30,569 nucleotides of DNA from a virus: IMG/VR virus record IMGVR_UViG_3300047546_002701, positions 1 to 30,569 of that record; one strand, written 5' to 3'. Every line of letters begins with the position of its first letter. The first letter of the stretch is position 1. Both the position numbers and the translations under genes were made by a program. Of the stretch, positions 1 through 17,475 are shown piece by piece. The notes beneath the pieces were generated by a model. It ran no database searches. It saw only the letters and a program-made list of their open reading frames with translations, and was not told where the DNA came from.

Positions 1-214
1 TATTAGAAGTAAGTATATCGGATATAATTTGTAAATTTTTTATATAATCATTATTAATTGGTTCTCCGTTTTCTGCGTAAAAACATTTATATCCATTATT
101 AAAATATGGTAATATTTGATTAAAAAAATCTATTATTTCCTCTCTATTGTAAGAAACAAAAATAGGTCTTTTTATTACAATAAAATTATCAAATATATCC
201 ACTATATTTTTCAT
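1..214 (-). CDS. Unrecognised protein, N-terminal fragment cut by window edge
   Basis: An ATG at 214-212 opens a frame that stays open for 71 codons to the left edge, so the C-terminus lies outside the window. The start overlaps the stop of the RmlC-like gene by four bases (ATGA), the coupling seen throughout this cassette, which supports it as a real gene. The visible product begins MKNIVDIFDNFIV and is rich in Ile, Asn, Phe and Tyr. I see no cofactor or catalytic motif and do not recognise the family. Its position downstream of two nucleotide-sugar enzymes suggests another sugar-pathway protein, but that is only context. Confidence 0.75.
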   Translation of the reverse strand, partial: MKNIVDIFDNFIVIKRPIFVSYNREEIIDFFNQILPYFNNGYKCFYAENGEPINNDYIKNLQIISDILTSN

Positions 215-756
215 CTATCTCTTTTTTGTAATATTGGATTATTTGTAGGCCATTCCATTTGAAATTCCGGGTCATTCCACTTAACTACATATTGTTCATC
301 CGCATCCACATAACCATCTTTGTAAAATAGGTTATAATGAAACATACAATCAGTTAATGCGTAGTGTCCGTTTGCAAACCCCGGTGGAACTAATATCTGA
401 TTCCTTAATCTTTCGGTTATAATAAATGATTCCCAATCTCCATAAGTTGGTGAATTCTCTCTCATATCCAAAACAACCAAATAAATATCACCTACTGCTG
501 CTTGAACCAACTTCCATGTCTTTTTATCCCAATGTAATCCTCTCAATACACCCTTATAAGAACGAGAAAATCTTCCGTGAATAGAAAGTTCATTCTTATC
601 ATAGTGTATATGATTCATTACAGGATGTTCTTCCGAATGGTATGTTGTGAATATCTCACCTCTATATTCTCTATAAACCGATGGTTGGAATATCGGAACA
701 TCATAACCAAATTTTTTAGATGGAGTAATTTGGAACTCATCCCACTTGTTACTCAT
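211..756 (-). CDS. RmlC-like dTDP-sugar 3,5-epimerase (cupin)
   Basis: The 181-residue product matches the dTDP-4-dehydrorhamnose 3,5-epimerase family in length and motif order: FSRSYKGVLRGLH at 63-75, with H75 in the place of the catalytic base; KLVQAAVGDIY at 82-92; VLDMRENSPTYGDW at 95-108; PPGFANGHY at 124-132; and a terminal WNDPEF..EWP block at 160-170. The family epimerises C3 and C5 of a 4-keto-6-deoxy sugar nucleotide in the cytoplasm. The first 50 residues match RmlC less well, so the substrate may not be the rhamnose precursor. It sits one base downstream of an SDR epimerase gene, which fits a two-step sugar-nucleotide conversion. No RmlA or RmlB is in the window, so the precursor would come from the host or from genes further left. 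Confidence 0.85.
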   Translation of the reverse strand: MSNKWDEFQITPSKKFGYDVPIFQPSVYREYRGEIFTTYHSEEHPVMNHIHYDKNELSIHGRFSRSYKGVLRGLHWDKKTWKLVQAAVGDIYLVVLDMRENSPTYGDWESFIITERLRNQILVPPGFANGHYALTDCMFHYNLFYKDGYVDADEQYVVKWNDPEFQMEWPTNNPILQKRDR

Positions 757-757
757 A

Positions 758-1723
758 TTATGCTTTATTTGCGTATCCTAATGGAAATCCATTTCTGAAT
801 TCTGCACCCATTTTTGGAACTATCATTTGATACCCTTGAATCAATTGTTTAATACCTCTATCTAAATCCCATTGTGGTAACCAACCAGTCGCTTCTATTT
901 TAGCGTTTGATACGATGTAATCTCTTTTATCGGGGTCCTCATAAAAATCGTTGTATGATACCGCAAAATCCTTTACATGGGATTGTATCTTTTCCAATAG
1001 TTCCTGCTTTGAAAGGTTTGCAGAGCTTAATCCTACATTAAATACTTCACCTTTATATTCATCGTAGTGATTTATCATAAAAAGAAATGCAGATGCTACA
1101 TCTTCAATATGAATAAAATTTCTTTTAAATGTCTTTTCAAACACCACAATGTATTTATCAGTAATTGCTTTGTAAACAAAATCGTTTACTAACAAGTCGG
1201 TTCTCATTCTTGGTGATACGCCAAATACAGTAGCTAATCTAAAAGTAATTGCAGATGTGTTTGCTCTTAGGAAATTTTCTGCATCACATTTAGTTTGTCC
1301 ATAAACTGATATCGGTGTAAGAGGCGATTCTTCGGTACATTCGGTTTGTCCAATACCAATTCCATATCCACTATTTGTATTTGGATATAAAATCTTTTTA
1401 TCTTTAGCAAATCTTACAATATTAAAGATTTGGTCAAAATTAATTTCCTTTGCTAATTTAGGGTCTGCTGCACAAGCAGGAAATCCAACTATTGCCGCTA
1501 ATGGTATAATCACATCAGCTTCTTTACATAACTGCTCTAATAATGATTCGTTACGAACATCTCCATATATGAATTTAAATTTAGGATATGATGTATATTG
1601 TAAAAGAGAAGTTTGATTAAATAATAGTTTATCTAATACTGTAACTTCATATCCTACATGTAGGAATCGTTCAACCATAACTGAACCTAAATAGCCTGCT
1701 CCGCCTGTAATTAATATTTTCAT
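758..1723 (-). CDS. NAD-dependent nucleotide-sugar epimerase/dehydratase (extended SDR)
   Basis: This is a 321-residue extended short-chain dehydrogenase/reductase. The N-terminal Rossmann motif GGAGYLG is at 7-13, and Asp31 at the end of beta-2 (VTVLDKL) favours NAD over NADP. The catalytic YxxxK is Y141-K145 (SVYGQTK), with NTNSGYG at 115-121 in the place of the active-site Ser/Thr strand. The family oxidises and re-reduces sugars attached to UDP, GDP or dTDP. The exact reaction (4-epimerase, dehydratase or reductase) cannot be read from the sequence. The gene is followed after one base by the RmlC-like gene, and the two probably act on the same sugar. The ATG start lies one base beyond the stop of the LamG-like gene upstream. 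Confidence 0.88.
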   Translation of the reverse strand: MKILITGGAGYLGSVMVERFLHVGYEVTVLDKLLFNQTSLLQYTSYPKFKFIYGDVRNESLLEQLCKEADVIIPLAAIVGFPACAADPKLAKEINFDQIFNIVRFAKDKKILYPNTNSGYGIGIGQTECTEESPLTPISVYGQTKCDAENFLRANTSAITFRLATVFGVSPRMRTDLLVNDFVYKAITDKYIVVFEKTFKRNFIHIEDVASAFLFMINHYDEYKGEVFNVGLSSANLSKQELLEKIQSHVKDFAVSYNDFYEDPDKRDYIVSNAKIEATGWLPQWDLDRGIKQLIQGYQMIVPKMGAEFRNGFPLGYANKA

Positions 1724-1724
1724 T

Positions 1725-2492
1725 TTAAAAATAAATGTTTTCTAAAGTTGCTTTTGATAAATAATTTCCATTGTGAGTCAATTCCCACACTTTATATCTA
1801 TTTTGTTGTTTAAAATCTAAGAAAAATGCTAAATCTTTTTTATAAGGGGTTTCATCTCTAAACACTCTTAAATCTTCTAAAAACTCAACTAAGTCTTTTT
1901 CATATCCATATGCCATCGATTGCATTTCATTTAATGAACGTAAACCTTTTATTAAGAAACACATATCAAATTCACACTCTAAATACATTGCTATATCCGG
2001 CACTTGAAAATTACCATTACCAAACTGATAAAATCCTCCGCCACCCATTTCACCAAATTTATAAGATTGTTTATCTTTTTCAACATATTCTTTTGTATCT
2101 ACTAATTTTGAATTCACATATACTGTAAACGTTTTTGAATTAGTATCATCATTTAATACAACTACTTCAATAAAATCATTTACTTCTGATTCATTTAGTG
2201 TGTGATGAAATTGTACAAAAGTATCATCGGTGAACCAATAAGTCCACATTAATGTAGTGATATCAAAACCATCGTTACTTTTTACTTTATAAAAAGATAA
2301 TCCAGAATGTTTACCACTTCTACCAAATGCAAATCCTTCTTGCCCATATTCCATTGTTTCTGGAAATATTTTTACTTTTAGGTATAATGAAAAATCATCA
2401 TCCATAAAGGTATCGATTTTTCTATCCGTAATATCATATCTACTTTCAGGTAGGATAACCCAAGGCTCTTCTTTTTTTACTAATAAACTCAT
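1725..2492 (-). CDS. Stand-alone LamG/concanavalin-like protein
   Basis: The frame can be opened at a GTG at 2516, but that start would overlap the radical SAM gene by 20 bases. The ATG at 2492 sits four bases after that gene's TAA, matching the usual local spacing, so I chose it (255 residues). The product has no signal peptide or membrane segment. Its alternating beta-strand character, the segment FTVYVNSKLVDTKEY, and a late LAFFLDF...ELTHNGNYL stretch resemble the LamG jelly-roll and its trailing segment in the three neighbouring GT-LamG proteins. Unlike them it has no glycosyltransferase part. A glycan-binding accessory protein is a guess from fold resemblance. The match is weak enough that another beta-sandwich family is possible. 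Confidence 0.6.
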   Translation of the reverse strand: MSLLVKKEEPWVILPESRYDITDRKIDTFMDDDFSLYLKVKIFPETMEYGQEGFAFGRSGKHSGLSFYKVKSNDGFDITTLMWTYWFTDDTFVQFHHTLNESEVNDFIEVVVLNDDTNSKTFTVYVNSKLVDTKEYVEKDKQSYKFGEMGGGGFYQFGNGNFQVPDIAMYLECEFDMCFLIKGLRSLNEMQSMAYGYEKDLVEFLEDLRVFRDETPYKKDLAFFLDFKQQNRYKVWELTHNGNYLSKATLENIYF

Positions 2493-2496
2493 ATTT

Positions 2497-3921
2497 TTAA
2501 ATTTGAATAGTTCCACAAAAATTATAAAATTCTTCCAATTCAGGGAATGTTTTTACAAAATTAGTTCCCCTTCTCTTATCATGCTCCGTAAAGTATTTGT
2601 GGAAGTTGTATCGGTTTCTAAGTTGCTTACCGGCATCTTGTGGTGATATCATCCAATCATATATTCTTTTTAATTTTTGTACCTCTATATCAGAGAATCC
2701 AATATATTTTGGTTCAAATACAGGAATTGCGTAGTATGTAATCAACTTAGTTTGTTCTAATATTTTTTTAGAAAAATCATAAGGTAATACTTGTACAGTT
2801 TGATGTAAAGGATATCTTAAATAAGATGAATCTAAGAATACTGCTGAATTCCAATATCTATCATAACTACCATATATGTCTTTTAGGTTATATACTTCTT
2901 TAATTAATTTATTATAATTAAATAAACTTAGTGCATTGTAGGTAGACATGAACGTAATAATAACTCTCGGGCATTTTGTTAAAATTTTATTTACGTTATC
3001 CCAAAATCTATTAAATTCTAATCCCGTTCTAATATAATCAGCTTGCTCTCCCCAGGTATCTACGGATGTAAAGATTACAATTTCGCTTGCTCTATCTTCA
3101 TCTTCAATTCGTTTTATTTTTTCAATAAACTTATCGATAAGTACATCCGGTGCACCTAAGTTAGAATTAAATGCCAATTTAAGTTGTTTATTTGGATTCT
3201 TTTGTTCAATTATATAATCCAATACTTTCCAAGTATCTTTTGCTAATAATGGTTCACCACCTGTTATTCTAAAAGTATGTAAATCTCTATACAAATCAGG
3301 CCACCATTTCCAAAATGCTTCAACGTATGGGTTATAATCTTTTTGAGCGATTGGCATTTTGTGTTCTTCAATCAAATATTGAGTATCATTAAATCTATCG
3401 GTTGTAGGATAGGCACCATATTGTTCAATTTCTTCTACCCATTGAGAACTGTATGCAGGTCCACAATATGAACATTTGAAATTACAAGCATTACTAAATG
3501 CAACCTCAACATATTTTGGATTAAAATCATCTCTCCAATCAGAACTTTTAATTTGTTCCATAAATGGTAAAGACCAGCTTTCTGAAGATTTAAATATTCT
3601 ATCAGAAAATATGTTTGAATTATCTTCTACACCCCAACAATAATCACACTCCGTTGGTCTTGCACCACTTAACATTTCTTTTCTACGAAGTTTTTTATAT
3701 CTCGTATTATGAAGTGCAGATGGGTTTCGTGCAATCTCTTGCGGTGAAATTGCGTGAGTGCGTGGGTGGTGACATGAGTGGTTATGTCCAACTTGCAACG
3801 ATAACGTTACTTGTGTCCATTTTGCCAAACACATACCCGGTCCAACTGCATCTAATGTTTTCTTCGTATTTACATACAAAGGGTTTTGTTGTTCTAAATC
3901 AACTTTAAATTTATCTGACAT
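2497..3921 (-). CDS. Radical SAM enzyme with extra N-terminal cysteines (twitch-type)
   Basis: This 474-residue protein has the radical SAM 4Fe-4S motif CNFKCSYC at 146-153 (CX3CX2C) and TGGEPLL at 220-226, the SAM-binding GGEP motif. The core therefore spans about 135-360. Ahead of it lie further cysteines: C31, C50 in SCHHPRTH, and C92/C95 in ECDYCW. They could bind an auxiliary cluster, as in the twitch/SPASM-related radical SAM proteins seen in phages. The C-terminal part (about 380-474) has no recognisable motif. The substrate is unknown. The gene overlaps the end of the lipoyl-domain gene by 11 bases and is followed by the lone LamG gene, inside a sugar cassette. Modification of a sugar, a peptide or the carrier domain are all open. 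Confidence 0.88.
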   Translation of the reverse strand: MSDKFKVDLEQQNPLYVNTKKTLDAVGPGMCLAKWTQVTLSLQVGHNHSCHHPRTHAISPQEIARNPSALHNTRYKKLRRKEMLSGARPTECDYCWGVEDNSNIFSDRIFKSSESWSLPFMEQIKSSDWRDDFNPKYVEVAFSNACNFKCSYCGPAYSSQWVEEIEQYGAYPTTDRFNDTQYLIEEHKMPIAQKDYNPYVEAFWKWWPDLYRDLHTFRITGGEPLLAKDTWKVLDYIIEQKNPNKQLKLAFNSNLGAPDVLIDKFIEKIKRIEDEDRASEIVIFTSVDTWGEQADYIRTGLEFNRFWDNVNKILTKCPRVIITFMSTYNALSLFNYNKLIKEVYNLKDIYGSYDRYWNSAVFLDSSYLRYPLHQTVQVLPYDFSKKILEQTKLITYYAIPVFEPKYIGFSDIEVQKLKRIYDWMISPQDAGKQLRNRYNFHKYFTEHDKRRGTNFVKTFPELEEFYNFCGTIQI

Positions 3922-4153
3922 TATTTTCTATTTTAGCTATTATACTATTAATTGGTATTCTTTTACCTTCTTCTATTCCTATATAGGTTATATATCCACT
4001 TTCCCAAACTTCTAAATCCATAACGGCTTTATCAGTTTCTATTTCAGCAATTATATCACCCGACTTTACATAATCTCCTACTTTAACAAACCAAGTTACT
4101 AATAAACCCGTTTCCATTGTATCAGTCATTCTTGGCATCAGTATATCACTCAT
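3911..4153 (-). CDS. Free-standing lipoyl (E2-type) carrier domain
   Basis: The whole 80-residue product is one lipoyl domain. It begins MSDILMPRMTDTMETG, like the first strand of 2-oxoacid dehydrogenase E2 proteins, continues with WFVKVGDYVKSGDIIAEIETDKA, and has the acceptor lysine at K42 in the ETDKA turn. Biotin carriers have MKM at this turn, so lipoate is the expected cofactor. After attachment by host lipoylation enzymes, such a domain would carry acyl, aldehyde or aminomethyl groups between active sites. There is no E2 catalytic domain, no E1 or E3 subunit and no lipoate ligase in the window. It starts in a four-base overlap with the upstream GT-LamG gene and ends inside the radical SAM start, so it is translated as part of the cassette. 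Confidence 0.92.
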   Translation of the reverse strand: MSDILMPRMTDTMETGLLVTWFVKVGDYVKSGDIIAEIETDKAVMDLEVWESGYITYIGIEEGKRIPINSIIAKIENNVR

Positions 4154-5616
4154 TTCTTTATGGTTTTTACATTTACCATAAATGCATTTGGAATATCCAT
4201 TATCTGCTCTTTACTGATAAATTCATATCTTTCTTTTGCATTTGATAATCCATCGCTTTTATAATTGATACTACCTTGCTGCATATTTAATACATATCTC
4301 CTTTCGTTTGCAGCAGTAGTTTCACCTTTTGCCCATTTCTGAATTCCTCCAACTTCAATAATACCTTCCGTTTGATGTGGTAAGCATTCAAATTTACCAT
4401 CTCTTCTATATGGTAATATTGTAGATGGTACTTCTATATTTTTTGATTCTATTTCTACATTTTGATTTACTAATCTATGTTTTAAATAAGAATCATCTTT
4501 TGCCATACCATTAAATGATAGATTTAAAATAGCTGTTTTTTCAAAAGCATTTTCAAAAATACTATTTTTAACTTCATCATTATTAAATGCTTTATTCCAA
4601 ACTTTAATTTTAGCAATATCTCCTTTAAACCATTTAGCATATTTTTGAGTTCCCGGTGATGGTGTGTGTCCAACAAAAAATGGTTCAACTCCATATCTCT
4701 TTAATGGTGATTCGAAATACATAGGTGAATTTGTGCCTGTACCATTTCTGGCATCGCTTTCATTTCCATTCATATAAAGATGCATCTTTTTATTTTTTGC
4801 ATCTAATACCATCGTTACCCAACTCCATTGATTTTCATAACGTTTCATCCATTGATATATGTGATTCTTTTTGGAATCCCATAGCATAGCAGTATATGCT
4901 CTACTATTATTAAAAGATAGTCCCCAATCGTAACCAGGTTTTCTGAATATTGGGTATTCTACAAATTGTCTTTTTGTATCGCCAATTAACCAAATCGGAA
5001 CTTTTTCTATTTGCTGGTCAGCCTTTACCAAAACTGAAATGGTATGTGAATCAGAAATTGCGTTTCTTAAATTATTAGATGGTAATATTTCTAATAATGA
5101 GTTTATACCATTAAACTTACCATATGATTGGTTTTCTATTGTTTGATGAATTTTTTTATCAACCATTCCCTCCAAAACACATCTCCAAAAAAGGTCATCA
5201 TCTTCCATACCCCAATCCCAATAATCATTTGAATAACCATTGGTTTTATATGCTTGCTCTTTACTAAATAAAACTGCTCCTCCAAAGTATTCTTCATACT
5301 TTAAATTGTAATCAGATTGAGATATACGAACTGCTATGTGTTGTGGATTATCGGTTGGAAATGAATAATCACAACTCTCATCTTCTGGCACCATATCAAT
5401 ATCGTGCCAAACTATATAATCACACCCATCTTCAAATGCAACAATTGCTGCTACATTTTTCATCAATCCTCGATTGAATAATTCATCATCATTTTGATGT
5501 CCTAAATATATAGCATGCTCAATTCCCCTTTCATTTAAAAATTTATGAATATGGGGAACAAATCTTTTTAAGTGCTCTTCTCTATTTCTATATGGTACAC
5601 ATACACCTAATTTCAT
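4150..5616 (-). CDS. Beta-1,4-galactosyltransferase-like enzyme with inserted LamG domain (copy 1)
   Basis: In this 488-residue protein, residues 1-160 follow the GT7/B4GalT catalytic fold: PYRNREEHLK at 8-17, FNRG at 47-50, the metal-binding HDIDMVP at 71-77, YFGG at 110-113, and GYSNDYWDWGMEDDD at 127-141 with the acceptor/catalytic EDDD at 138-141. Residues about 165-385 form a LamG-like jelly roll (SFNGMAKDD at its end). B4GalT features then resume: H414 in ECLPHQ, in the place of the metal-ligand His, and KSDGLSN...Y at 453-464, the family's terminal segment. Expected chemistry is metal-dependent transfer of a sugar from a UDP donor. There is no signal peptide, so it acts in the cytoplasm. 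The catalytic residues look intact. The gene ends in a four-base overlap with the lipoyl gene. Confidence 0.87.
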   Translation of the reverse strand: MKLGVCVPYRNREEHLKRFVPHIHKFLNERGIEHAIYLGHQNDDELFNRGLMKNVAAIVAFEDGCDYIVWHDIDMVPEDESCDYSFPTDNPQHIAVRISQSDYNLKYEEYFGGAVLFSKEQAYKTNGYSNDYWDWGMEDDDLFWRCVLEGMVDKKIHQTIENQSYGKFNGINSLLEILPSNNLRNAISDSHTISVLVKADQQIEKVPIWLIGDTKRQFVEYPIFRKPGYDWGLSFNNSRAYTAMLWDSKKNHIYQWMKRYENQWSWVTMVLDAKNKKMHLYMNGNESDARNGTGTNSPMYFESPLKRYGVEPFFVGHTPSPGTQKYAKWFKGDIAKIKVWNKAFNNDEVKNSIFENAFEKTAILNLSFNGMAKDDSYLKHRLVNQNVEIESKNIEVPSTILPYRRDGKFECLPHQTEGIIEVGGIQKWAKGETTAANERRYVLNMQQGSINYKSDGLSNAKERYEFISKEQIMDIPNAFMVNVKTIKK

Positions 5617-5617
5617 A

Positions 5618-7078
5618 TTATAAAAGTACAGACAAAAAATGATAGTTTTTAATCGTTGCCTCGTTTAATAATTTATATGTACAATTTGATAATCCATCAG
5701 ATTCTACATTTGTTAAGTTTCTGGAAATATTGTTAAAAAATCTTATTTGATTTTGGCGAGTATTTCTAGTTTTCCATTTACCATCAGTATATCCATTTTC
5801 TCTATGAGATAATAGTTTTATCAAAGATTTTCTTCTTTTTGGAACATATACATCAAATTCATCTGAAACATCGATTTCAACTAAATGAGTTTGGTGTGTA
5901 GATGCATCATTACCATTACCACTTAAATCTATCAAAGTTCTATTCCTTGTTATGCAAGTATCATAATAACATAATAGTTTTTCTGAAGATTTATATTGTT
6001 TAAAATTTTCAGTAAGTGGATACATTCTGTTTTCTGATATTGCTTTTATTTCCGATGGTGAAAGTATTCCATCATATACCGCAAATTCTTTAATTACGCC
6101 TTTAAACCAATTACCATCTTCATTTCTATACGGGTCTCCACAACCTAAAAAGAAAGATGCTTCATCTTTATAATTTTTTATTTTAGCAAATTCTTTCACT
6201 TCTTTACCATCTCTGTTATAAGTGCGTGATATAGTTGTTTCTCCTATAAACTCACCATCTTTATACATTGATATTTTTCCATTTAAGAAATCTAAATTAA
6301 ATACAATATTTACATATGAATTAATTGATATTTCAGAGTTTATAGCATACGCATTATTATTTGTATCCCAAGTTTCTACTTTATATCTTTTGAATGAATT
6401 AAAACTTATATTTGTATCATAGCCAGGAATAGAAAAAACTGTATAATCATCCCATTCTTTATTCGGACTACAAACTATACTATCTGCTTTAAATTTTACT
6501 ACTACACTTCTTGAATTTTTAAAATCAAAAATATCATGCAGTTTATCAATTTCAATATAAGAATTTTTACCATTAAAATATAATCCTTTTACTTTAGCAT
6601 CGGATTTTATTATCTTTTTATCTAAAGATAATCCGGCTTGCTTACATCTATATAGAAGGTCATCATCTTCAAATCCCCATCCCCAATAGTCATTTGAATA
6701 TCCATTTATTTCTTCAAACGCTTGCATTGGAAAAATAGTTATACCTCCAAAGTATTCATCAAATACTATTCTTTTGATATTTGGATTATCTTCAAAACCA
6801 GTTGCTAAATGTATTGGTGTTTCTGAATATGAATAATCCACCTTAATTGGTATCATATCCACATCGTGAAACGCAACATATTTACAACCTAATTTTTTGG
6901 CTCTTTCAAATCCTATATTTAATAACTTACCTCTATTAAAAGGTTTCTCATCTAATTGTTCTACTATAATCAGTTCATATTGAATTGATTGTTTTTTTAG
7001 AGCAGCATCAACACTTTCTCTAAACATCTTTAGATGAGCTTCTCTATTTCTATATGGAACAATTATACCTAGTTTCAT
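5618..7078 (-). CDS. Beta-1,4-galactosyltransferase-like enzyme with inserted LamG domain (copy 2)
   Basis: This 486-residue paralogue of the next gene downstream keeps the full motif set: PYRNREAHLK at 8-17, FNRGKLLN at 47-54, HDVDMIP at 71-77, YFGG at 109-112, and GYSNDYWGWGFEDDD at 126-140. A LamG-like domain occupies about 163-400; its trailing segment LIDLSGNGNDAS at 382-393 is typical of such phage LamG modules. After it come KLLSHRE (H425) and ESDGLSNCTYKLL at 459-471, equivalent to the C-terminal end of animal B4GalT. It is probably an active GT-A glycosyltransferase with a built-in lectin-like domain. Donor and acceptor cannot be assigned. Its ATG shares one base with the stop of the 93-residue gene (TAATG), and its stop is one base before copy 1. 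Confidence 0.87.
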   Translation of the reverse strand: MKLGIIVPYRNREAHLKMFRESVDAALKKQSIQYELIIVEQLDEKPFNRGKLLNIGFERAKKLGCKYVAFHDVDMIPIKVDYSYSETPIHLATGFEDNPNIKRIVFDEYFGGITIFPMQAFEEINGYSNDYWGWGFEDDDLLYRCKQAGLSLDKKIIKSDAKVKGLYFNGKNSYIEIDKLHDIFDFKNSRSVVVKFKADSIVCSPNKEWDDYTVFSIPGYDTNISFNSFKRYKVETWDTNNNAYAINSEISINSYVNIVFNLDFLNGKISMYKDGEFIGETTISRTYNRDGKEVKEFAKIKNYKDEASFFLGCGDPYRNEDGNWFKGVIKEFAVYDGILSPSEIKAISENRMYPLTENFKQYKSSEKLLCYYDTCITRNRTLIDLSGNGNDASTHQTHLVEIDVSDEFDVYVPKRRKSLIKLLSHRENGYTDGKWKTRNTRQNQIRFFNNISRNLTNVESDGLSNCTYKLLNEATIKNYHFLSVLL

Positions 7079-7359
7079 TATTTTTCAGAATCTTTTTTAG
7101 GTCTGCTAGTAGATGGTTGTGATGATGTTCCCTCAGCTGCATCAGCTATTTTGGTAACATTGTTATGTAATTCATACAAATAGTATTGAATTCTATCACT
7201 CCAATCTTGCTTTTCAATTTCTTCGAACCAAACAGTTAATGCATCTAAAGAGTTTGCAATTTTTTCTAATGCTTTAACTTTTCTTTGTTCTAAGATTAAA
7301 TTTTCAACAGCTTCTGCTGATTCTACTTGTTGTGTAACAACTTTTTTTGTACCTGCCAT
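7078..7359 (-). CDS. Small helical protein of unknown function between GT genes
   Basis: This 93-residue soluble protein is predicted to be mainly helical. A charged segment at about 20-75 (VKALEKIANSLDALTVWFEE, then a WSDRIQYYLYELHNN stretch) has hydrophobic spacing suitable for a coiled coil or helical hairpin. A low-complexity Ser/Pro/Lys tail follows at 76-93. I do not recognise a named family. It lies between two GT-LamG genes, five bases from one stop and overlapping the next start by one base, so it is co-translated with them. A scaffold, adaptor or small structural protein would fit. There is no evidence of catalysis. Confidence 0.75.
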   Translation of the reverse strand: MAGTKKVVTQQVESAEAVENLILEQRKVKALEKIANSLDALTVWFEEIEKQDWSDRIQYYLYELHNNVTKIADAAEGTSSQPSTSRPKKDSEK

Positions 7360-8853: not shown

Positions 8854-9708
8854 TTATATAGATATAATTTCTTTTAATAAAACACTCCAATTTTTGTAAT
8901 TTTCGTAGTTTGCAGTTGGACAAAATTCGAATTTGTATAAAGAATTTTTGATATTTAATTTAAATCCATTTGAACGTAGTGATTGATACATTTTTAGATA
9001 TTCATCGGAATATGCATAATCTTTTTTAATATCTGCTACGGCTTTAATTCTATCAATTGATGTTGAATCCCATTTAAAATGATGTACTTGCACATTATAT
9101 TCATCTATTGGTGCTATTGTTCTGTTATGCAATTGTGGTCCCCATAATGTTTTTGTTCCACTTTTAGCATAATGTTGTCCATTTGTTATTTCTACTTTAC
9201 CTTTAACAACGCATATTTTATTTGGACAAGCTTTACTCATTGGGTATCTAAAAAATCCAGCCATTGGAAATTGGCTGAATAAATTTTGGTTTGATTTAAA
9301 TGGTTTTATTTCATTAAACTTACCATCTTCACCAATTCTATCAATAAATCCACCTCTTACTATATCCCATCCATTTTCATCACATTCTTTTACCATTTGA
9401 TGAAGTGGTTTAGAATAAACATGGAATTCATCATCATCGGAAACTACCCACCAATCATTTGGATATAAATCTTTTATAGCGTTATAAATGGATGTCACTG
9501 TTTCCCAATTATACTCTTGTTCATCCGAATGTTTGTATAATTTGATTTTACTACCAAACGAATCACAAACTTTTTTTACATTTTCATATTGATTATTCTT
9601 AGTATCATAAGCTACAACATATATTTCGTCAACAATATCAATATAATGTTGTAGCATATATGGTAAAGTTGTTGTTCTTGCTCCCGTTACAGTAACTAAT
9701 CTTATCAT
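8854..9708 (-). CDS. GT-A glycosyltransferase (family 2-like)
   Basis: This 284-residue protein has an N-terminal Rossmann-like half. MIRLVTVTGARTTTLPYML is followed by EIYVVAYD at 28-35, and the metal/nucleotide motif WVVSDDDEF is at 87-95 (D91-D93). The C-terminal half has ITNGQHYAKSG at about 175-185 and VQVHHFKWDS, a His-rich motif of the glycosyl transferase family 2 subset that acts on polysaccharides. Conserved ordering suggests a metal-dependent, nucleotide-sugar-using enzyme. No membrane segment is visible. Its ATG overlaps the methyltransferase stop by four bases. Its stop is 16 bases from the degenerate GT-LamG start, the longest gap inside the cassette. Confidence 0.8.
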   Translation of the reverse strand: MIRLVTVTGARTTTLPYMLQHYIDIVDEIYVVAYDTKNNQYENVKKVCDSFGSKIKLYKHSDEQEYNWETVTSIYNAIKDLYPNDWWVVSDDDEFHVYSKPLHQMVKECDENGWDIVRGGFIDRIGEDGKFNEIKPFKSNQNLFSQFPMAGFFRYPMSKACPNKICVVKGKVEITNGQHYAKSGTKTLWGPQLHNRTIAPIDEYNVQVHHFKWDSTSIDRIKAVADIKKDYAYSDEYLKMYQSLRSNGFKLNIKNSLYKFEFCPTANYENYKNWSVLLKEIISI

Positions 9709-10469
9709 ATTTTGTTTTTAGTAACTATTGATAATCCAGTAGATGTAGTTTTATGTGTAAAGGTAATAAAATTTTTTAAATTTACCAAATTATATTTAGA
9801 ATTATTTTTTAATTCTTCAATAAATTTTGCAGGCCCATCAAATTCTGCAAAATCCGTTTTTTGTGTATCTGGAACTAAAAACGTATTATGATAGTTTTGG
9901 TCTGTATCGTGAATCGTAATTATTCCGTTTTCAGACATTATTTGTGAGTATAATTCAAAATCTTTTTTAACTCCTTCATATGAGTGGTCACCATCTATAT
10001 GTAAATAATCGATTTTAATATCCTGTCTTACAAAATAATCGTAATATGCTCTTTCTGATGTTTCAATTATAACTTGCGGTGCAAAATGTTGTCTTAGAAA
10101 TGAATTTTCTTCAGTCCAATCCGTATATCCACCAATACCATTAGCGGCATCTATTATTATTGTAGTTCCAATATCACCCCATTCATTAGATGAGTTTCCT
10201 TCAAATATTCCTTGCTCCCATAAATCGTGGCGAGATTGTGTCATCAAACGGGGTATAAACCCACCACCCGTTCCAATACATACACACACCTTTGCTCTAA
10301 TAAATTGTATCAGAGAATATATCAGCAAACCATCACCTAAGTGTAAATCAGTTGCACCATGTGACCAACGATATTTTACAGGCTCATATGATATATTACC
10401 ATCATCATCTTTTGTATGATTATTAGTAATAAAATTTTTTACTAAATTTAAATTGATAAGACTTTGCAT
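9705..10469 (-). CDS. Class I SAM-dependent methyltransferase (Methyltransf_24-like)
   Basis: This 254-residue protein has a Rossmann-type methyltransferase core. VCVCIGTGGGFIPRL at 61-75 is the SAM-binding glycine loop, IIIDAANG at 104-111 is the next strand, and IDYLHIDGDHSYEGVKKD at 153-170 is a signature of the Methyltransf_24 family, which includes sugar O-methyltransferases. GIITIHDTDQNYH at 182-194 completes the core. The D/H pairs could bind a metal, as in related O-methyltransferases. In this cassette, methylation of a sugar hydroxyl on the glycan being built is the likeliest role (inference). The gene start lies 22 bases inside the GT-B gene, and its stop overlaps the GT-A gene by four bases. 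Confidence 0.83.
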   Translation of the reverse strand: MQSLINLNLVKNFITNNHTKDDDGNISYEPVKYRWSHGATDLHLGDGLLIYSLIQFIRAKVCVCIGTGGGFIPRLMTQSRHDLWEQGIFEGNSSNEWGDIGTTIIIDAANGIGGYTDWTEENSFLRQHFAPQVIIETSERAYYDYFVRQDIKIDYLHIDGDHSYEGVKKDFELYSQIMSENGIITIHDTDQNYHNTFLVPDTQKTDFAEFDGPAKFIEELKNNSKYNLVNLKNFITFTHKTTSTGLSIVTKNKI

Positions 10470-11428
10470 ATTTCAGTAACCCACTTTTGTTTATTAGTAT
10501 ATCCATTTAATCCATTTCTTAATTTATTAAATTCAAAATTTACTTTATCAAATGAATCTTCTAATATTTCTAAATATATGTGATTAAATTGTTCTTTTGT
10601 ATTTGCTCTATATTTGTAATCAATATGTTTCATCCAATCCGTATGTATAATTGGAACTTTACCATTATCTACCGCATCAAATATTGAATACCCAAAAGGT
10701 TCTTTTGTATAACATCCGTGAAATATTTGAAAATTACCATCAAAAAATTTCTGATGAAATCGGTAATCAAATTCGATAAATCTATGGTAATCAGAATTTA
10801 TTTTACTACCTTCTAACATTCTCTTATAATCATATTTGTTAGAAAATATAATAGAAGGAATATTATCTAAGTAATGTGCATTTTTTCTAGTTTCACATCT
10901 GGCAGCATATCCAATCTTATTTGAAATAATTCCTAAAAATGGTTTGCTTTCTTTCCATTCATAGTAATTTGTAATGTTAATAACGTGTGGATAACTTTTA
11001 TGTATTGTATCATTTTCGTATCCAATCCAAATTATATTATCGGAATTATCTAATATTTCCTTTTGCCATCCCCAATCAATTTTAGTCATTAGGTTTTCAT
11101 ACTCATCATTTAACCCCAACATATCGGGAATAAAAGCATGAACAAAAGTTGTGTGAGTTTTGTGTAGATACTTTTTGATTATAGGATTTGGTTTGTAAGA
11201 ATGGTGTAAAAATACAATCTTATCACATTCATTTAATATCCTATCTATTTCATCATCGTTTTGGTAAGTATATATTGTACCATCTTCTGGCAATAAAGGC
11301 CTTCCATCAACTACAATTTTGTAGTCTTCCGTAACCAATGGTAAAACGTTCTCCATAAAGTTATTACACCATATATCCGAACCTCCTACTATATTTTTTC
11401 CGTAACCTGTTGTTATGAATACTATCAT
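10448..11428 (-). CDS. GT-B glycosyltransferase (GT4-like)
   Basis: This 326-residue, two-domain GT-B protein opens with MIVFITTGYGKNIVGGSDIW, and the glycine pair near residue 15 fits the N-terminal acceptor domain. The donor domain includes IGYAARCETRKNAHYL at 172-187, resembling the G-R/K sugar-phosphate loop. It also has KEPFGYSIFDAVDNGKVPII at 242-261, a variant of the GT4 EX7E motif with E243 and D251. Such enzymes transfer sugars from nucleotide donors without a metal. The product is short for GT4 but both halves are present. It is the first cassette gene after the tail fibre, with a four-base ATGA overlap, which links expression of the glycan genes to the fibre. Confidence 0.78.
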   Translation of the reverse strand: MIVFITTGYGKNIVGGSDIWCNNFMENVLPLVTEDYKIVVDGRPLLPEDGTIYTYQNDDEIDRILNECDKIVFLHHSYKPNPIIKKYLHKTHTTFVHAFIPDMLGLNDEYENLMTKIDWGWQKEILDNSDNIIWIGYENDTIHKSYPHVINITNYYEWKESKPFLGIISNKIGYAARCETRKNAHYLDNIPSIIFSNKYDYKRMLEGSKINSDYHRFIEFDYRFHQKFFDGNFQIFHGCYTKEPFGYSIFDAVDNGKVPIIHTDWMKHIDYKYRANTKEQFNHIYLEILEDSFDKVNFEFNKLRNGLNGYTNKQKWVTEICKVLSI

Positions 11429-14400
11429 ACACTTCCGCTTAATTTAGCTTCTAACATTTCAACTTTTGCAGTTAATTCTTGTATCGCTTTAATCATTGGA
11501 GATATTAATTCTGTATAAGCCAATCCCAATTCACCTCTTACAGATGCAGATATCTCACTTTCATATACATTCCAATCATCACGAGTTTTCCATTTTTCAA
11601 CATCTTCTTCGGTATAGTCAAAAGATGAACTTGCTATAAATCCAACATCGGATGTTGTTTTATTAAAATCATTTAAAGTTCCTATTAATTCTTGTGCGAT
11701 TAAACCATAATGATATCTTGGAGAAGATGCTGAATTATTTTTATATTTTACAGGTCTTAATTTATTTACAAATTCTAAACCCAAATCCGTATCTTCAATT
11801 GAATTTTTTAAACGTTCATCCGATGTACTATTTAATGCGTTATTTGTCCAAACTGTTTTCCATCTATTCCCAGTTGTACCCAAATCATTTGTGTTTCCAA
11901 CATATGGGTGTACAACTCCATCAAAATATGAGAAAGTAGTAGCATTTGGCGATTTTACATAAATAGCACCCTTCGCTTCTAAAGCATATGAAGCTTGCCT
12001 TGCTATTTTTACAAATGAGTCTGCTGAAGATGCTACCTGTAGTCCGTATTCTGTTAATTCTCCAAAATCTAATTCTGGGTTAAAGGTGCTAGTTCCTCCC
12101 GTATATCCGCCGCCGGCCATTTGTACATACCCTGATGTCCAGTTACCTGATATAGTTCTAACCGGATGAAAGTAATAAGTTCCTGCGTTTGGTAAAGTTA
12201 ATGTTGTTAATTGAGGTATTATCTGCATAACCCCTGTCTCATTAGGCGTACCATATGTTGTATCACCACCAACGCTTATGTATCCAACAGTATTTCCTAT
12301 GTTATAGTTTGGGCTATCTTTAACTTCAATAGTGAAGTTTATAGAAAAATAACCATTAAAAGTAGGACTTGTATAATATAAATTAGCACCATTTCCGCTA
12401 GGGAATGATGGTGTACCTACATAGTTACCGGCGGATTGGAAATAAGTACTTGAATAGCTACCAACTGTCTGAGAAAATATACTTGAATAATATGTTCCGG
12501 CCCCCGTTGCTTGTGATGGCATTGTTACGGATTCACCAGCTCCTCCTAAATATGTTAATGGACCTGTTTTTACCGTTAATTTTGTAGCTCCGGTTGTATT
12601 ATTAAATTTTATAGATGGAATGGCTGGGTCTAATACTATTTGTCCAGCAGTACCAACACCAGTTAGTTTAGATGAGTTACTGATTGACCACCCACCAATT
12701 GTTCCGGCGGTAGCGGTTACAGTACCTGTCATAGATGCATTATTAGCAAGCATATTACCAGATGTATCTACACTAAAATTAGAACCAATTGTAATACTAC
12801 CACCACTAATTGTGGCACCACTAAGATTACCACTAAATGTACCACTAGCACCGCTTATATCTCCTTTAAAAAATGCACTACCTGCCGCTGTTATTCTAAA
12901 GTTTTTAGCAGATATACCACCACCCGTTAAATCAATTGCCATTCCTTCCGCTGAGAAATCACTACCATTAGCAGGTCCACTATGATTACTTGATAGAATC
13001 GTACCCGTTCTAATTTTATTACCGGTAATAGTTGTAGTATTATTATTAACATCGGTTGCTGCTTGTCCTGGTTGTAATGAAGCTGCCGCTGCCGATGCCG
13101 CACTATTTGCAGTACTTTGTGCGGTTGCTGCATTACTCAATGCGCTTGATGCGTTACTTACAACAGTAGATGCTAATGTTGCACCAATTGTAACATCACC
13201 TCCAATTGATAAGGTACTACCATCCCACGTTATACCTTTAGTAGATGCATCTCCAATTGAAAATTTATATGCAGAACCATGATATCCCAAAAAGAATCCT
13301 GTTCCTGTATTATAATTAGTTTGTCCACCTTTAATAGAACCACCTCCACTAATCGTAATACCACCTCCAGTAATTGTAGTTCCTGCTATAAGACCGGTTT
13401 GAGCTTGATTTTGTGGAGTTAGATTTGATACGTTACCCAAACCTACTTGAGTAGCAGTAGTATTTGCATTAAGAGTATCCGATAAATTATAATTAGTTCC
13501 ACCTACTGTAATTTGTCCTGCGAATGTTCCTCCTGCTGCAGATAGAGTTCCTTTAAATACTGCATCTCCATTTGAATCTACATAGAAAGTTTTTGTAGCA
13601 ATTCTACCATTATCTAAATCTATAATACTACCAGCCGTTGTATATGGGCTACCTGCCGAATAGTTTGTTGATGTTATTTTACCGGTTGATATATTACTGC
13701 CATTAATTAATGTAGTTCCTGCTACACCAAATGATAAAGCGTTTGAACCATCACTAACATTATTAGCTGCGGTGAATGATACCAATCCACTAAATCCTAT
13801 TGCCTGAGTAGGTGTTCCAAAAGATGGAGTACCTGTACCACCTCCAGCGGTTGTTTCAACAACACTATAAGTTGAATACCAATATTTGTTAGTGTTACCA
13901 CTAGCATAAGTTGGTGCGCCCAACCCCCAATTTGCTGTTAATCCACTAAATGTACCCGTACTAAATGTATATGATGTTGCAGTTGGTGCAGATGGTGCGG
14001 ATGTTGCAGCTACTTGATAGTGAATCATTCCCGTTGCGGTACGTTTACCATCTGCTCCAGAGTTTCCAGGGTCACCCTGTGCACCTGCTATTGCTTTTGA
14101 TATTGTGAATCTAATAGTTGAAGTTCCCGATGTACCTTCAGAATCTACATATGCAATTGTTACAACGCCCGTATTATCTGTTGATGATATTGCGGTAACA
14201 TCTATCGTTGATGTAGATGGTGTTGTACTTCCTACCGTTACTCCCGTTACATTTGTGATTTTAAATTGAGATGTACTTAGTGTTCCCTGATTATATGTTA
14301 AAGCAGAAGAACCTTCAAATGCAGTTAGTACCGGGTCCACAATTGTACCAGTTAATGTTCCAGCACTATTTGCGGCAACTGTTTGTGAAGATGGAGTAAT

Positions 14401-17400
14401 TGCAAATGTGATTGTAGGCGGTGCTTTTTTAACTTTTGATAATGTTATTGTATCGGTTAAAGTTCTACTACTTCCTTCAGAATCAGTAACTGTAGCCGAA
14501 ATAGTTACAATTGTAGAATTCGTACCATCTGCTAAAGTTTTGCCATTTAATGTTACTAAGCCACTTGCAGCTGTTGTTGATATACTTGCGATATCAGAAG
14601 ATGTTGCGGTTAATGATGTTATTGTTAAATTGGTAGTAGAACCATTATATGTTTGTGAAACAGTTACAGTTGAATTTGAAAAAGCATCAATTTGTGTTCC
14701 AGTTGATTTAGCTGAAACCGATTGTGCTTTATTTGTTGTTGATATAGATAATACTGGTGCTGCTTTTTTAACTTTTGTTAAAGAAACGTTACCAAATACT
14801 TGTCTACTTATTCCTTCCGAATCGGTAACCGAACCCGTAATAGATAATTCAACAGAATCTGTTGCAGTTGCCAATGTTGGATAAGATAAATTAGTAGTAG
14901 TTTTAGTTATGCCAGGAAAAGCAGAACTACTATTAATAGTTGGGGCAGATGATAATGTTAGATTACTATTAGTTCCATTATATTGCTCTTTTACGCTTAA
15001 TGTAGAATCGCTAAATGATGTTACTTGCTCACCTGTTGATTTTGCATCAGTAGATTGATTATTATTTCCAATTACAAACGTTAATACAGGAGCTGCTTTT
15101 TTATTCTTTGTATATGTTGCCGTTTTTGTAACAGACGTTGTATCACCGGCGCCATCCTTATAACTTATTGTTATATCCAATGAACCAGAATCGGCTGATA
15201 AATTTGTTATACCATATCCGTTTATAGATGGATTTGATGAATTTGGTGTACACCCCGTACCACTTAGACTTGTTATAGCGAATGTATTATTTGCTCTACT
15301 ACTATCATTATCATCATCAAATGTAATTGTTTCATTACCAACCTTTACGTTTACTGAACCAGATGTTAATATGAATGACCCACTTGCTACAAATCCATTC
15401 GAAAGAGCAGGAAGTGATGCGTTATCATTTGTAAGTGTTACAGATAAACCATCTAATATTTTTACAGGAGTTATTTTAATTGCATCGGAAAATTCATTTC
15501 CAAATTGGTCAGAGCCGGAAATAAAATAACTTCTTTCACCGATTGAATATGAGTATGTTGAACCAGCCAATGTAAATGTATCCACACCATTTGTTGCGTT
15601 TGTAGATACAAAAGTTAATGGTGGCGTACCACTTCCGGAATTTACAGTTAATGGTGTTGTAGCTGATGCTAAATTTTTACGTTTAGCTTCTATTGTAATA
15701 ACTTGTCCCGTTGGATTGAGTGACAAATCGGTTGCTTTATATATAAACTGATTTGCGTTTGATGTTACAAAAACACCAGGTGCATTATCACCATCTTCAA
15801 ATCTATAAATTGTTTCATATTCTTCAAACCCCTCACACGATGCGGTGTATGTAATTGAACCTACTATTACACTACTAACACTTCCACTAAATTTAGCAAT
15901 ACTCAATAATGCACCGGAATCACTAACGTTGGTAAGTGCTCCTGGATATTCTCCAGCGTATGATGATGGAACGATATAGTTTCCATCTTTATCAAATGAT
16001 GCACTCGAATATGTAATTGAGCCTGTATAATTAGTTTTTGTTGTTTTAAATTTAACAAATTGTGATGGTGGATTACCTACCGAACCTGATGAAAATCTAA
16101 ATGCGGTTCTATCTGATTCAAATGTTAATAACTTTGTAATTGCATTTGAACCACCTGTAAAATTTGCACTACCAGTTACCGAAACAGGAACGTAGTTATT
16201 ATTTACATCATAAAATTCAAATTTGAAATTAAAATCTTCATTTCCTACAACAGTTGGCATTGTTGTTACAAACGAAACTTCATCTGGCGAAAACGCTGTA
16301 TCTTCTGATAATTTTAAACTTATATTACCAACGTGCCATTCACCTCGTGATTGTGAAAAATATAAAGATGCGCTTGCAAAATTGGAATCTAATTTAAATG
16401 GAATAGTTGTATCTAATAAATTTTTTGTTGGGGAAATACCACTTAATGTGCCAATTAAAATATCACCACCATCAGAACCACTAACATATATTCCCAAATT
16501 GCTATCGGTTGATGCTGAATAAAAAGCATCTAAATTAAGTTCGTATGTATTTGCTGAATTTAATTCTAATGATGAACTATATCTAAAATAGCCACTACCG
16601 CTTAATTTCAATCCACTTTCAACTCTACTTGATGTTAATTCAGTTCCTAAAGAACCGGATATCCAATAATTTTTTAAAGTTTCTGATGTGAAAATACCTG
16701 TATTTCCAACAACACTACCCGATAAATTATATGTAGTAAGTAATTCTTTTGATTCCACCAATATATCCTGAATCATATCATAATCGGATATATCGCCCAA
16801 AGATGTTCTAAATACTTTTATTCTTTTTACATCTCCTGCAAATGTTTCTAAATTTGAAATTTTTATATTTGCAAAAGATTGATTTATACCACTATTTATT
16901 TTTAAACCTGTATTAGAATCTATTCTATAAATTGGAGAAATTAATTCGGTTATTGTAGCGGTAGGTCTACGATAAAAACGAATTTTTGTTGTATTGGCTA
17001 ATGTTGGGTTTACATTTATTGTTTTTTGCCACTTTACATTATAAGTTCCTTGCCAATCAATTGGTATAGGAGTTAATAATCCATTATCATCATAATATGA
17101 ACTTAATTCACCTAATATTGTTATTGTACATGGACCATAAGCAGTATCATCTGGATACACATAAACTGCTACAACTTTGGAAACACCCTCAAAATATTCG
17201 TTTGTAAATTGTTCACCATTGATTGTAGTTACTAAATTACCTTCACCTGGTTCGTGATATATAACATTCCCCGCTGCATCTTTTATTTCTATTTTAATCA
17301 AAGTATCCGGCACCAATTCACCAGAGCCTGCTATTAAAAATGCGTTTTTACCGCCGGTAAATGTATCGGGTAATTCTGTAATATTAAAATAGGTACTTGT

Positions 17401-17475
17401 AGGATTTGTATCTCTAACAAATGTGTTATACCTTTCTAAATTTTCAGCGAATAGAGTTTTTTGGATTACAGCCAT
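11425..17475 (-). CDS. Giant tail fibre/spike with C-terminal S74 intramolecular chaperone
   Basis: This 2016-residue adhesin is rich in Ser, Thr, Gly and Asn. Residues 1-400 are beta-rich, with jelly-roll-like stretches. About 680-1128 holds tandem Ig-like modules, three of them clearly related. A short Gly-X-Y run (AQGDPGNSGADG) lies near 1130-1141. About 1260-1550 is a shaft with two related modules (GTFAG.. and GTFSG.. types). The terminal 132 residues are a Peptidase_S74/endosialidase-type chaperone, STSDERLKNSIED, with S1885 and K1890 as the self-cleavage dyad. A coiled-coil end (AIQELTAKVEMLEAKL) follows, as expected for trimerisation and release. The protein would bind the host surface at the virion tail tip. 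The leader is 104 bases long, with an A/T motif at 17494-17501. Confidence 0.9.
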   Translation of the reverse strand: MAVIQKTLFAENLERYNTFVRDTNPTSTYFNITELPDTFTGGKNAFLIAGSGELVPDTLIKIEIKDAAGNVIYHEPGEGNLVTTINGEQFTNEYFEGVSKVVAVYVYPDDTAYGPCTITILGELSSYYDDNGLLTPIPIDWQGTYNVKWQKTINVNPTLANTTKIRFYRRPTATITELISPIYRIDSNTGLKINSGINQSFANIKISNLETFAGDVKRIKVFRTSLGDISDYDMIQDILVESKELLTTYNLSGSVVGNTGIFTSETLKNYWISGSLGTELTSSRVESGLKLSGSGYFRYSSSLELNSANTYELNLDAFYSASTDSNLGIYVSGSDGGDILIGTLSGISPTKNLLDTTIPFKLDSNFASASLYFSQSRGEWHVGNISLKLSEDTAFSPDEVSFVTTMPTVVGNEDFNFKFEFYDVNNNYVPVSVTGSANFTGGSNAITKLLTFESDRTAFRFSSGSVGNPPSQFVKFKTTKTNYTGSITYSSASFDKDGNYIVPSSYAGEYPGALTNVSDSGALLSIAKFSGSVSSVIVGSITYTASCEGFEEYETIYRFEDGDNAPGVFVTSNANQFIYKATDLSLNPTGQVITIEAKRKNLASATTPLTVNSGSGTPPLTFVSTNATNGVDTFTLAGSTYSYSIGERSYFISGSDQFGNEFSDAIKITPVKILDGLSVTLTNDNASLPALSNGFVASGSFILTSGSVNVKVGNETITFDDDNDSSRANNTFAITSLSGTGCTPNSSNPSINGYGITNLSADSGSLDITISYKDGAGDTTSVTKTATYTKNKKAAPVLTFVIGNNNQSTDAKSTGEQVTSFSDSTLSVKEQYNGTNSNLTLSSAPTINSSSAFPGITKTTTNLSYPTLATATDSVELSITGSVTDSEGISRQVFGNVSLTKVKKAAPVLSISTTNKAQSVSAKSTGTQIDAFSNSTVTVSQTYNGSTTNLTITSLTATSSDIASISTTAASGLVTLNGKTLADGTNSTIVTISATVTDSEGSSRTLTDTITLSKVKKAPPTITFAITPSSQTVAANSAGTLTGTIVDPVLTAFEGSSALTYNQGTLSTSQFKITNVTGVTVGSTTPSTSTIDVTAISSTDNTGVVTIAYVDSEGTSGTSTIRFTISKAIAGAQGDPGNSGADGKRTATGMIHYQVAATSAPSAPTATSYTFSTGTFSGLTANWGLGAPTYASGNTNKYWYSTYSVVETTAGGGTGTPSFGTPTQAIGFSGLVSFTAANNVSDGSNALSFGVAGTTLINGSNISTGKITSTNYSAGSPYTTAGSIIDLDNGRIATKTFYVDSNGDAVFKGTLSAAGGTFAGQITVGGTNYNLSDTLNANTTATQVGLGNVSNLTPQNQAQTGLIAGTTITGGGITISGGGSIKGGQTNYNTGTGFFLGYHGSAYKFSIGDASTKGITWDGSTLSIGGDVTIGATLASTVVSNASSALSNAATAQSTANSAASAAAASLQPGQAATDVNNNTTTITGNKIRTGTILSSNHSGPANGSDFSAEGMAIDLTGGGISAKNFRITAAGSAFFKGDISGASGTFSGNLSGATISGGSITIGSNFSVDTSGNMLANNASMTGTVTATAGTIGGWSISNSSKLTGVGTAGQIVLDPAIPSIKFNNTTGATKLTVKTGPLTYLGGAGESVTMPSQATGAGTYYSSIFSQTVGSYSSTYFQSAGNYVGTPSFPSGNGANLYYTSPTFNGYFSINFTIEVKDSPNYNIGNTVGYISVGGDTTYGTPNETGVMQIIPQLTTLTLPNAGTYYFHPVRTISGNWTSGYVQMAGGGYTGGTSTFNPELDFGELTEYGLQVASSADSFVKIARQASYALEAKGAIYVKSPNATTFSYFDGVVHPYVGNTNDLGTTGNRWKTVWTNNALNSTSDERLKNSIEDTDLGLEFVNKLRPVKYKNNSASSPRYHYGLIAQELIGTLNDFNKTTSDVGFIASSSFDYTEEDVEKWKTRDDWNVYESEISASVRGELGLAYTELISPMIKAIQELTAKVEMLEAKLSGSV
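11821..11823 (-). other. Predicted S74 self-cleavage serine codon (S1885)
   Basis: The TCG codon for S1885 begins the SDERLK motif. In characterised S74 chaperones, the peptide bond just before this Ser is cut after trimerisation and the C-terminal piece leaves the mature fibre. Cleavage here would release the last 132 residues. The site is assigned by motif only. Confidence 0.75.
12830..13695 (-). repeat. Duplicated shaft module in the tail fibre (two diverged copies)
   Basis: Two segments of about 60 residues share one motif order: TG.I.S.N(Y/H)S, then IDL..G.I..K.F, then a G.A.FKG..S.A.GTF(A/S)G end. The first copy is encoded at about 13515-13695 and the second at about 12830-13020. They are separated by a Gly-rich stretch (TITGGGITISGGG). 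This pattern is common in long phage fibre shafts built from repeated trimeric beta-helix units. Confidence 0.6.
14095..15105 (-). repeat. Three tandem Ig-like modules of about 112 residues in the tail fibre
   Basis: The three modules begin with KKAAPVLTF, KKAAPVLSI and KKAPPTITF, near residues 792, 902 and 1015, giving a period of about 335-340 bases. The first two share QS..AKSTG.Q, TYNG/QYNG, and a closing VTDSEG.SR...(V/T).L.KV. The third is more diverged but keeps DSEG and a final ISK. A more distant fourth unit precedes them (about 680-790). Such modules usually stiffen adhesins or bind glycans weakly. Copy number may vary by recombination between related strains. Confidence 0.75.

Follow-up and report, generated by a model that had tools for sequence, protein, structure and literature searches.

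The locus considered here raises the question of whether a lectin-like domain can be lodged inside the catalytic fold of a glycosyltransferase and, if so, what it might do there. It lies in the IMG/VR virus record IMGVR_UViG_3300047546_002701, of which positions 1 to 30,569 (30,569 nucleotides, the window) were analysed, and centres on two adjacent genes, designated P1 and P2, whose products combine a LamG-like region with the motifs of glycosyltransferase family 7 (GT7), the family of the animal beta-1,4-galactosyltransferase B4GalT1. In silico comparisons indicate that in both products the LamG domain is almost certainly inserted within the GT7 catalytic fold, between the helix that carries EDDD and a His of the C-terminal part (C-His), rather than fused to an end. 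The initial annotation had proposed this arrangement and had placed both open reading frames (ORFs) and the motifs PYRNRE, FNRG, DxD, YFGG and EDDD correctly. The features on which the argument relies, including those of a third tandem paralog, P3, are as follows.

P1, 4150-5616, minus strand: ORF of 488 amino acids (aa) with an ATG start
P1, GT7 first part (residues 1-152), 5161..5616, minus strand: VPYRNRE, FNRG, HDID (DxD), YFGG and the EDDD helix; from Pfam, B4GalT1 and profile matches
P1, insert (residues 153-399, 247 aa with linkers), 4420..5160, minus strand: predicted LamG, concanavalin A-like jellyroll; from Laminin_G_3, fold matches and the profile break
P1, GT7 second part (residues 400-488), 4153..4419, minus strand: YRRDGKFECLPH, SDGLSN..Y and the last strands; from the LamG-less GT7 profile
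P1, H414, 4375..4377, minus strand: codon CAT, C-His and equivalent of the metal-site His of B4GalT1, present in 76/76 P1-type proteins
P2, 5618-7078, minus strand: ORF of 486 aa with an ATG start
P2, GT7 first part (residues 1-154), 6617..7078, minus strand: Pfam GT7N and GT7C; profile positions 3-162
P2, insert (residues 155-413, 259 aa with linkers), 5840..6616, minus strand: predicted LamG jellyroll; from Laminin_G_3, the profile break at 154/414 and fold matches
P2, GT7 second part (residues 414-486), 5621..5839, minus strand: KRRKSLIKLLSH, SDGLSNCTY and the last strands; from the profile and the LamG-deleted alignment to B4GalT1
P2, H425, 5804..5806, minus strand: codon CAT, equivalent of C-His, present in 74/74 P2-type proteins
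P3, 7365..8843, minus strand: third tandem paralog with GT7 at residues 1-157, a LamG insert at 158-416 and GT7 again at 417-492; from Pfam and a two-piece profile match

Matches to Glyco_transf_7N, Glyco_transf_7C and Laminin_G_3 were found in P1, P2 and P3, all above the curated gathering cut-offs of Pfam. They cover residues 2-84 (E 9.7e-19), 93-151 (E 5.3e-19) and 186-350 (E 1.5e-10) of P1, and residues 2-80 (E 2.1e-21), 106-152 (E 1.7e-17) and 206-345 (E 6.2e-09) of P2; the Laminin_G_3 match of P3 has an E of 2e-08. The sequence match to B4GalT1 spans residues 2-153 of P1 (E 1.1e-30) and the first 153 residues of P2 (E about 1e-29). The nature of the segment beyond LamG emerged from a profile built on 60 bacterial GT7 proteins that have no LamG. 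This profile matches P1 in two pieces, its positions 3-159 corresponding to residues 2-152 and its positions 158-226 to residues 400-476 (independent E-value, i-E, 8e-06). The same occurs in P2, with positions 3-162 on residues 2-154 and 161-225 on residues 414-479 (i-E 7.6e-07), and in P3, with positions 1-161 on residues 5-157 and 165-227 on residues 417-485. The two pieces are collinear and join at the same profile position. Presented alone, the C-terminal segment still matches with an E of 2.2e-07 for P1 and 1.3e-08 for P2.

This situation extends to the whole set of 181 full-length relatives that were collected, all of which, in all three paralog clades, carry the insert. The C-terminal piece was recovered at i-E<0.01 in 174 of them and the isolated segment at E<1e-3 in 177, while none of the shuffled C-terminal segments matched the profile at E<1e-3 (best 0.032). 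The spacing from EDDD to the His has a median of 23 residues (range 23-29) in the 60 LamG-less proteins versus medians of 272, 270 and 281 in P1-, P2- and P3-type proteins, respectively. Once its LamG is deleted, P2 aligns over residues 2-218 to residues 65-267 of the bovine B4GalT1 chain, through to the SDGL..TY end. The claim that LamG sits inside the catalytic fold is borne out by the two-piece match, the spacing and the invariant His, and H414 and H425, which the initial annotation had singled out, are indeed the His residues concerned. Its picture of ca. 230 inserted residues in two proteins needed refinement, the inserts being longer (see the list above) and P3 representing a third case.

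Full-length AlphaFold models were obtained with a predicted local distance difference test (pLDDT) of 92.5 and a predicted template modelling score (pTM) of 0.88 for P1, and with values of 94.1 and 0.89 for P2; since the two domains are about equal in size, so high a pTM suggests a defined relative orientation in the models. After LamG, the P1 model has the strand that leads to C-His at 408-411, a helix at 432-445 and the final strands at 464-471 and 478-485, and this predicted beta, alpha, beta, beta order is the one expected at the end of a GT7 domain. With both models, Foldseek returned B4GalT1 and B4GalT7 first, followed by LamG-type domains and pentraxins; the first part of P1 superposes on B4GalT1 with a root mean square deviation of 1.4 over 150 columns (TMt 0.52). 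In the GT-A core, as surveyed in eLife (PMC7185993), the catalytic Asp of the xED motif begins helix alpha-F and C-His belongs to the C-terminal part. The insertion point is the turn that separates alpha-F from the C-His strand, taken here as beta8.

Active-site residues are retained on both sides of the insert. In bovine B4GalT1 these are D252, D254, Y289, W314, D318, H347, R228 and E317. The equivalents of the first six are invariant in the 76 P1-type and 74 P2-type proteins, the C-terminal His being kept in 150/150; those of R228 and E317 are each substituted once in P2 and, with one gap in P1, are otherwise invariant, E317 being kept in 149/150 P1/P2 relatives. The position of the metal ligand Met344 is occupied by Cys in P1 and by Leu, Ser, Lys or Thr in P2. 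P1 and P2 are probably active GT7-type transferases, and UDP-galactose is their most likely donor because every P1 and P2 relative has a Tyr at the position equivalent to Tyr289. In P3 the active site is degraded, with HDVN and FEYMD in place of DxD and EDDD (xED), Asn in place of C-His and Tyr in place of the UDP-binding Arg. Across its clade the Arg is replaced by Tyr in 31/31 proteins and the His is lost in about half, with members ranging from near-intact to clearly degenerate, which suggests that P3 is a pseudoenzyme, or an enzyme of altered chemistry, standing beside two intact ones. In all 15 proteins that have lost the C-terminal His, DxD or the E-D pair is missing too, a joint loss that would fit a shared metal site.

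As for the insert itself, glycan binding is not universal among LamG domains. In P1 it contains many invariant polar and aromatic positions, within a set of relatives that was chosen by similarity. A precedent for a binding module in an enzyme of this kind comes from B4GALNT3, in which removal of the PA14 domain strongly lowers activity (PMC11254600). By analogy, LamG is a putative acceptor-binding module, an assignment for which we consider the chances about even. A more daring possibility, which seems rather unlikely, is that LamG acts as an acceptor sensor: it is joined on one side to alpha-F, which carries the catalytic base, and on the other to the strand that ends with the metal-site His, and its binding of a glycan or virion protein might tighten or loosen the metal site and thereby confine activity to the correct target once assembled. 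If true, this would define a new location in the GT-A fold for a module that sets specificity. The stand-alone LamG-like protein of the same locus and the tail proteins were also considered as sources of the inserted LamG; this was not retained, LamG profiles giving only weak matches to the stand-alone protein (best 1.1e-05) and none of note to the tail proteins of the window.

A search with P1 detected the LamG-interrupted GT7 in at least 227 uncultured viral contigs of up to 287 kb, 80 loci of which were examined. Twelve large records (106-287 kb) have two or three GT7s each, all in long open frames (431-502 aa) that match the LamG-bearing type in size. Among the isolated phages of INPHARED, tblastn with P1 and P2 gave no match at 1e-5; with the cut-off relaxed to E 10, matches were confined to part of P2, the best listed hits being mycobacteriophage glycosyltransferases (E about 0.1), which make up nearly all isolated-phage matches and align weakly and with the first GT half only. 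A single marginal and partial match was found in PHROGs. Copies binned with Pelagibacterales and Flavobacteriales (L104, L107 and L109) carry the phage cassette described below and are probably phage contigs. P1-type copies also occur in two genomes of the Fibrobacterota group (L106:409-1884 and L108:5941-7431), and their products nest with the P1 clade on the tree. The L108 copy lies in cellular surroundings, its neighbours being a GT2, an ABC transporter and an HlyD-like gene, and in L106 the next open frame ends, by eye, in GT2-like sequence. Of 40 genomes searched from the order concerned, only these two gave a full-length match, and a transfer between phage and bacterium is possible. The LamG-bearing proteins cluster on the tree with at most two label changes and may have a single origin.

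In the window, P1 to P3 belong to a glycan cassette that adjoins a tail-fibre-like gene and comprises the following.

RmlC-like epimerase, 211-756, minus strand: from Pfam
NAD-dependent epimerase/dehydratase, 758-1723, minus strand: from Pfam
Stand-alone LamG-like protein, 1725-2516, minus strand: weak Pfam match (E 0.02)
Radical SAM protein, 2497-3921, minus strand: just after P1; from Pfam, with CxxxCxxC in CNFKCSYC
Lipoyl/biotinyl-type domain protein of 80 aa, 3911-4153, minus strand: from Pfam; shares 4 bases with the end of P1
g93, 7078-7359: 93-aa protein between P3 and P2, without PHROGs match
GT2-like glycosyltransferase, 8854-9708, minus strand: from Pfam
CmcI-like methyltransferase, 9705-10469, minus strand: from Pfam
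Unassigned protein, 10448-11428, minus strand: upstream cassette gene, from cassette conservation
Tail-fibre-like protein of 2016 aa, 11425-17475: ends in a Peptidase_S74 (chaperone of endosialidase) domain; immediately upstream of the cassette

Over the 80 loci, with flanks limited to 6 kb, the radical SAM gene was found in all 80, P1 and P2 in 79 each, the GT2-like gene in 76, g93 in 74 and the methyltransferase in 72. Lower counts were obtained for the epimerase/dehydratase (57), the unassigned protein (54), the RmlC-like epimerase (49), the stand-alone LamG-like protein (42), which resembles the inserted LamG domains weakly, and P3 (34); the lipoyl protein occurs in one locus. In 61 of 70 loci P1 and P2 lie side by side.

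Put together, these data lead us to propose that P1 and P2 would each perform an inverting, metal-dependent, GT-A type transfer from a UDP-sugar, probably UDP-galactose. The chain is almost certainly broken at the turn between alpha-F and the C-His strand by a LamG jellyroll of about 230-250 residues and then returns to complete the catalytic domain with C-His, DGLxxxxY and the last two strands. LamG would be a non-catalytic, glycan- or protein-binding module that two strands hold in a fixed orientation and that may help to present or choose the acceptor, much as the PA14 of B4GALNT3 might. P1 and P2 would act in sequence and, with the other glycosyltransferases of the cassette, assemble a glycan; its carrier would most likely be a part of the virion, for example the tail-fibre protein whose gene adjoins the cassette. 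Taken as a whole, from split fold and active enzymes to acceptor module and virion target, this statement appears probable; its last part, the virion target, is held more tentatively, at somewhat below an even chance, and is favoured because the cassette is constant and a tail gene is its neighbour.

Several results weigh against this proposal, starting with its structural basis. The LamG-deleted P1 stopped at residue 157 in a single-sequence alignment (phmmer), so that the joined match anticipated by the initial annotation was obtained for P2 and not for P1 alone, and the family profile was used for this reason. In nearly all Foldseek matches the GT alignment covers only the first 150-160 residues, as would be expected of a local aligner facing an insert of 250 residues, and the second half consequently gains no independent confirmation from it. 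Losses of the His and of the motifs form one event on the tree, so their correlation is not counted as independent support. The C-terminal segment might be an unrelated small domain, LamG simply following a truncated GT7, as the stop at residue 157 would allow and as could be expected from the Pfam GT7 models, which end before the segment and leave it unmarked. This is nevertheless very improbable given that the LamG-less profile resumes in that segment at the next profile position, that its His is invariant throughout the P1- and P2-type proteins and that the LamG-deleted P2 aligns through to its end. That these genes are frame or assembly artefacts can practically be dismissed, since they are independent open frames: the 181 full-length frames are distinct and come from many contigs, and those of the 12 large records have no internal stops.

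Other adverse points concern function. Judged from sequence, the insertion site is outside all three hypervariable regions with which the eLife survey associates acceptor specificity (beta3-alphaC, beta6-beta7 and the tail after beta8; PMC7185993). Because alpha-F starts with the catalytic Asp, the turn that receives LamG is expected at the opposite end of this helix, and a location of LamG beside the acceptor site, as assumed in the initial annotation, does not follow, even if LamG could fold back over the active site. LamG is also the fastest-changing segment, with 30-52% mean pairwise identity within clades versus 54-78% for the first GT segment, which fits variable acceptors and, equally, weak constraint. 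Both the position of the turn away from the catalytic centre and the fast change would suit a neutral passenger at a permissive site, or else a structural or oligomerisation element, the models matching pentraxins, which form multimers. Such a role is conceivable but not likely when set against the retention of the insert in every full-length relative of the three clades, the conserved polar and aromatic positions in P1 (with the reservation on sampling made above) and the persistence of a stand-alone LamG-like protein in about half of the cassettes. As to the target, the Fibrobacterota homologs have no virion to modify, and the surroundings of the L108 copy resemble those of a surface or secreted glycan locus. 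During infection the cassette might instead remodel a polysaccharide of the host surface (O-antigen or capsule), for instance to block the attachment of other phages, with LamG docking there. Its sugar-nucleotide genes, several glycosyltransferases and O-methyltransferase-like gene resemble clusters of jumbo cyanophages for which a role in varying outer polysaccharides, as a defence against superinfection, was proposed (PMC7824862). Those clusters are sporadic and polymorphic, whereas the core found here (radical SAM, P1, P2, GT2-like and g93) is nearly constant; moreover, the cassette adjoins a tail-fibre gene, and flippase, polymerase or ligase genes were not recognised among the annotated cassette proteins, which makes a host-surface target a less plausible option than modification of a virion component.

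The LamG-interrupted architecture appears to be new within a known enzyme family. No description of it was found in the open-access literature searched, as far as the titles, abstracts and passages covered go, most subscription papers falling outside the search; in a paper on an Aureococcus virus, galactosyltransferase and LamG proteins are given as separate genes. The architecture also marks a widespread, uncultured group of large phages with a conserved glycan cassette. Phage-encoded glycosyltransferases accompanied by sugar-nucleotide genes are known from the jumbo cyanophage clusters (PMC7824862), and mycobacteriophage glycosyltransferases add glycans to capsid and tail proteins of the virion, as described in PMC12619734; unlike P1 and P2, neither group has a reported LamG insert, nor a close sequence relation to them.

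Closer parallels exist among the enzymes themselves. B4GALNT3 and B4GALNT4 are GT7-type enzymes. They resemble P1 and P2 in having a beta-sheet, putative glycan-binding module, PA14, that is needed for activity, but the PA14 fold differs from LamG and the accessible text of the report does not state that PA14 interrupts the catalytic domain (PMC11254600). In PGAP4 (GT109), a large insertion does occur in the GT-A fold, as mentioned in PMC8476585; there, however, the inserted elements are transmembrane segments and not a lectin-like domain, and the family is another one. Animal B4GalT1 and B4GalT7 (CAZy GT7) have DxD, YFGG, WGWG-EDDD, C-His and SDGLxxxTY arranged as in P1 and P2, and the first 150 residues are about 35% identical, but their catalytic domain is uninterrupted and without LamG, and at most a few dozen residues separate EDDD from the His. 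Bacterial GT7 proteins that lack LamG (Pelagibacteraceae, Azospirillum, Parachlamydiaceae and others) provide the nearest profile and the same ...RDGxFxxLxH...DGL end, in a contiguous core of about 220-290 aa. GT-A enzymes are thought to diversify mainly via loops at three places, whereas the family of P1 and P2 carries a whole lectin-like domain at a fourth, between the catalytic helix and the metal His. Nature thus provides a case in which the effect of a chain-embedded binding module on the choice of acceptor can be tested, and one from which enzyme design could possibly start.

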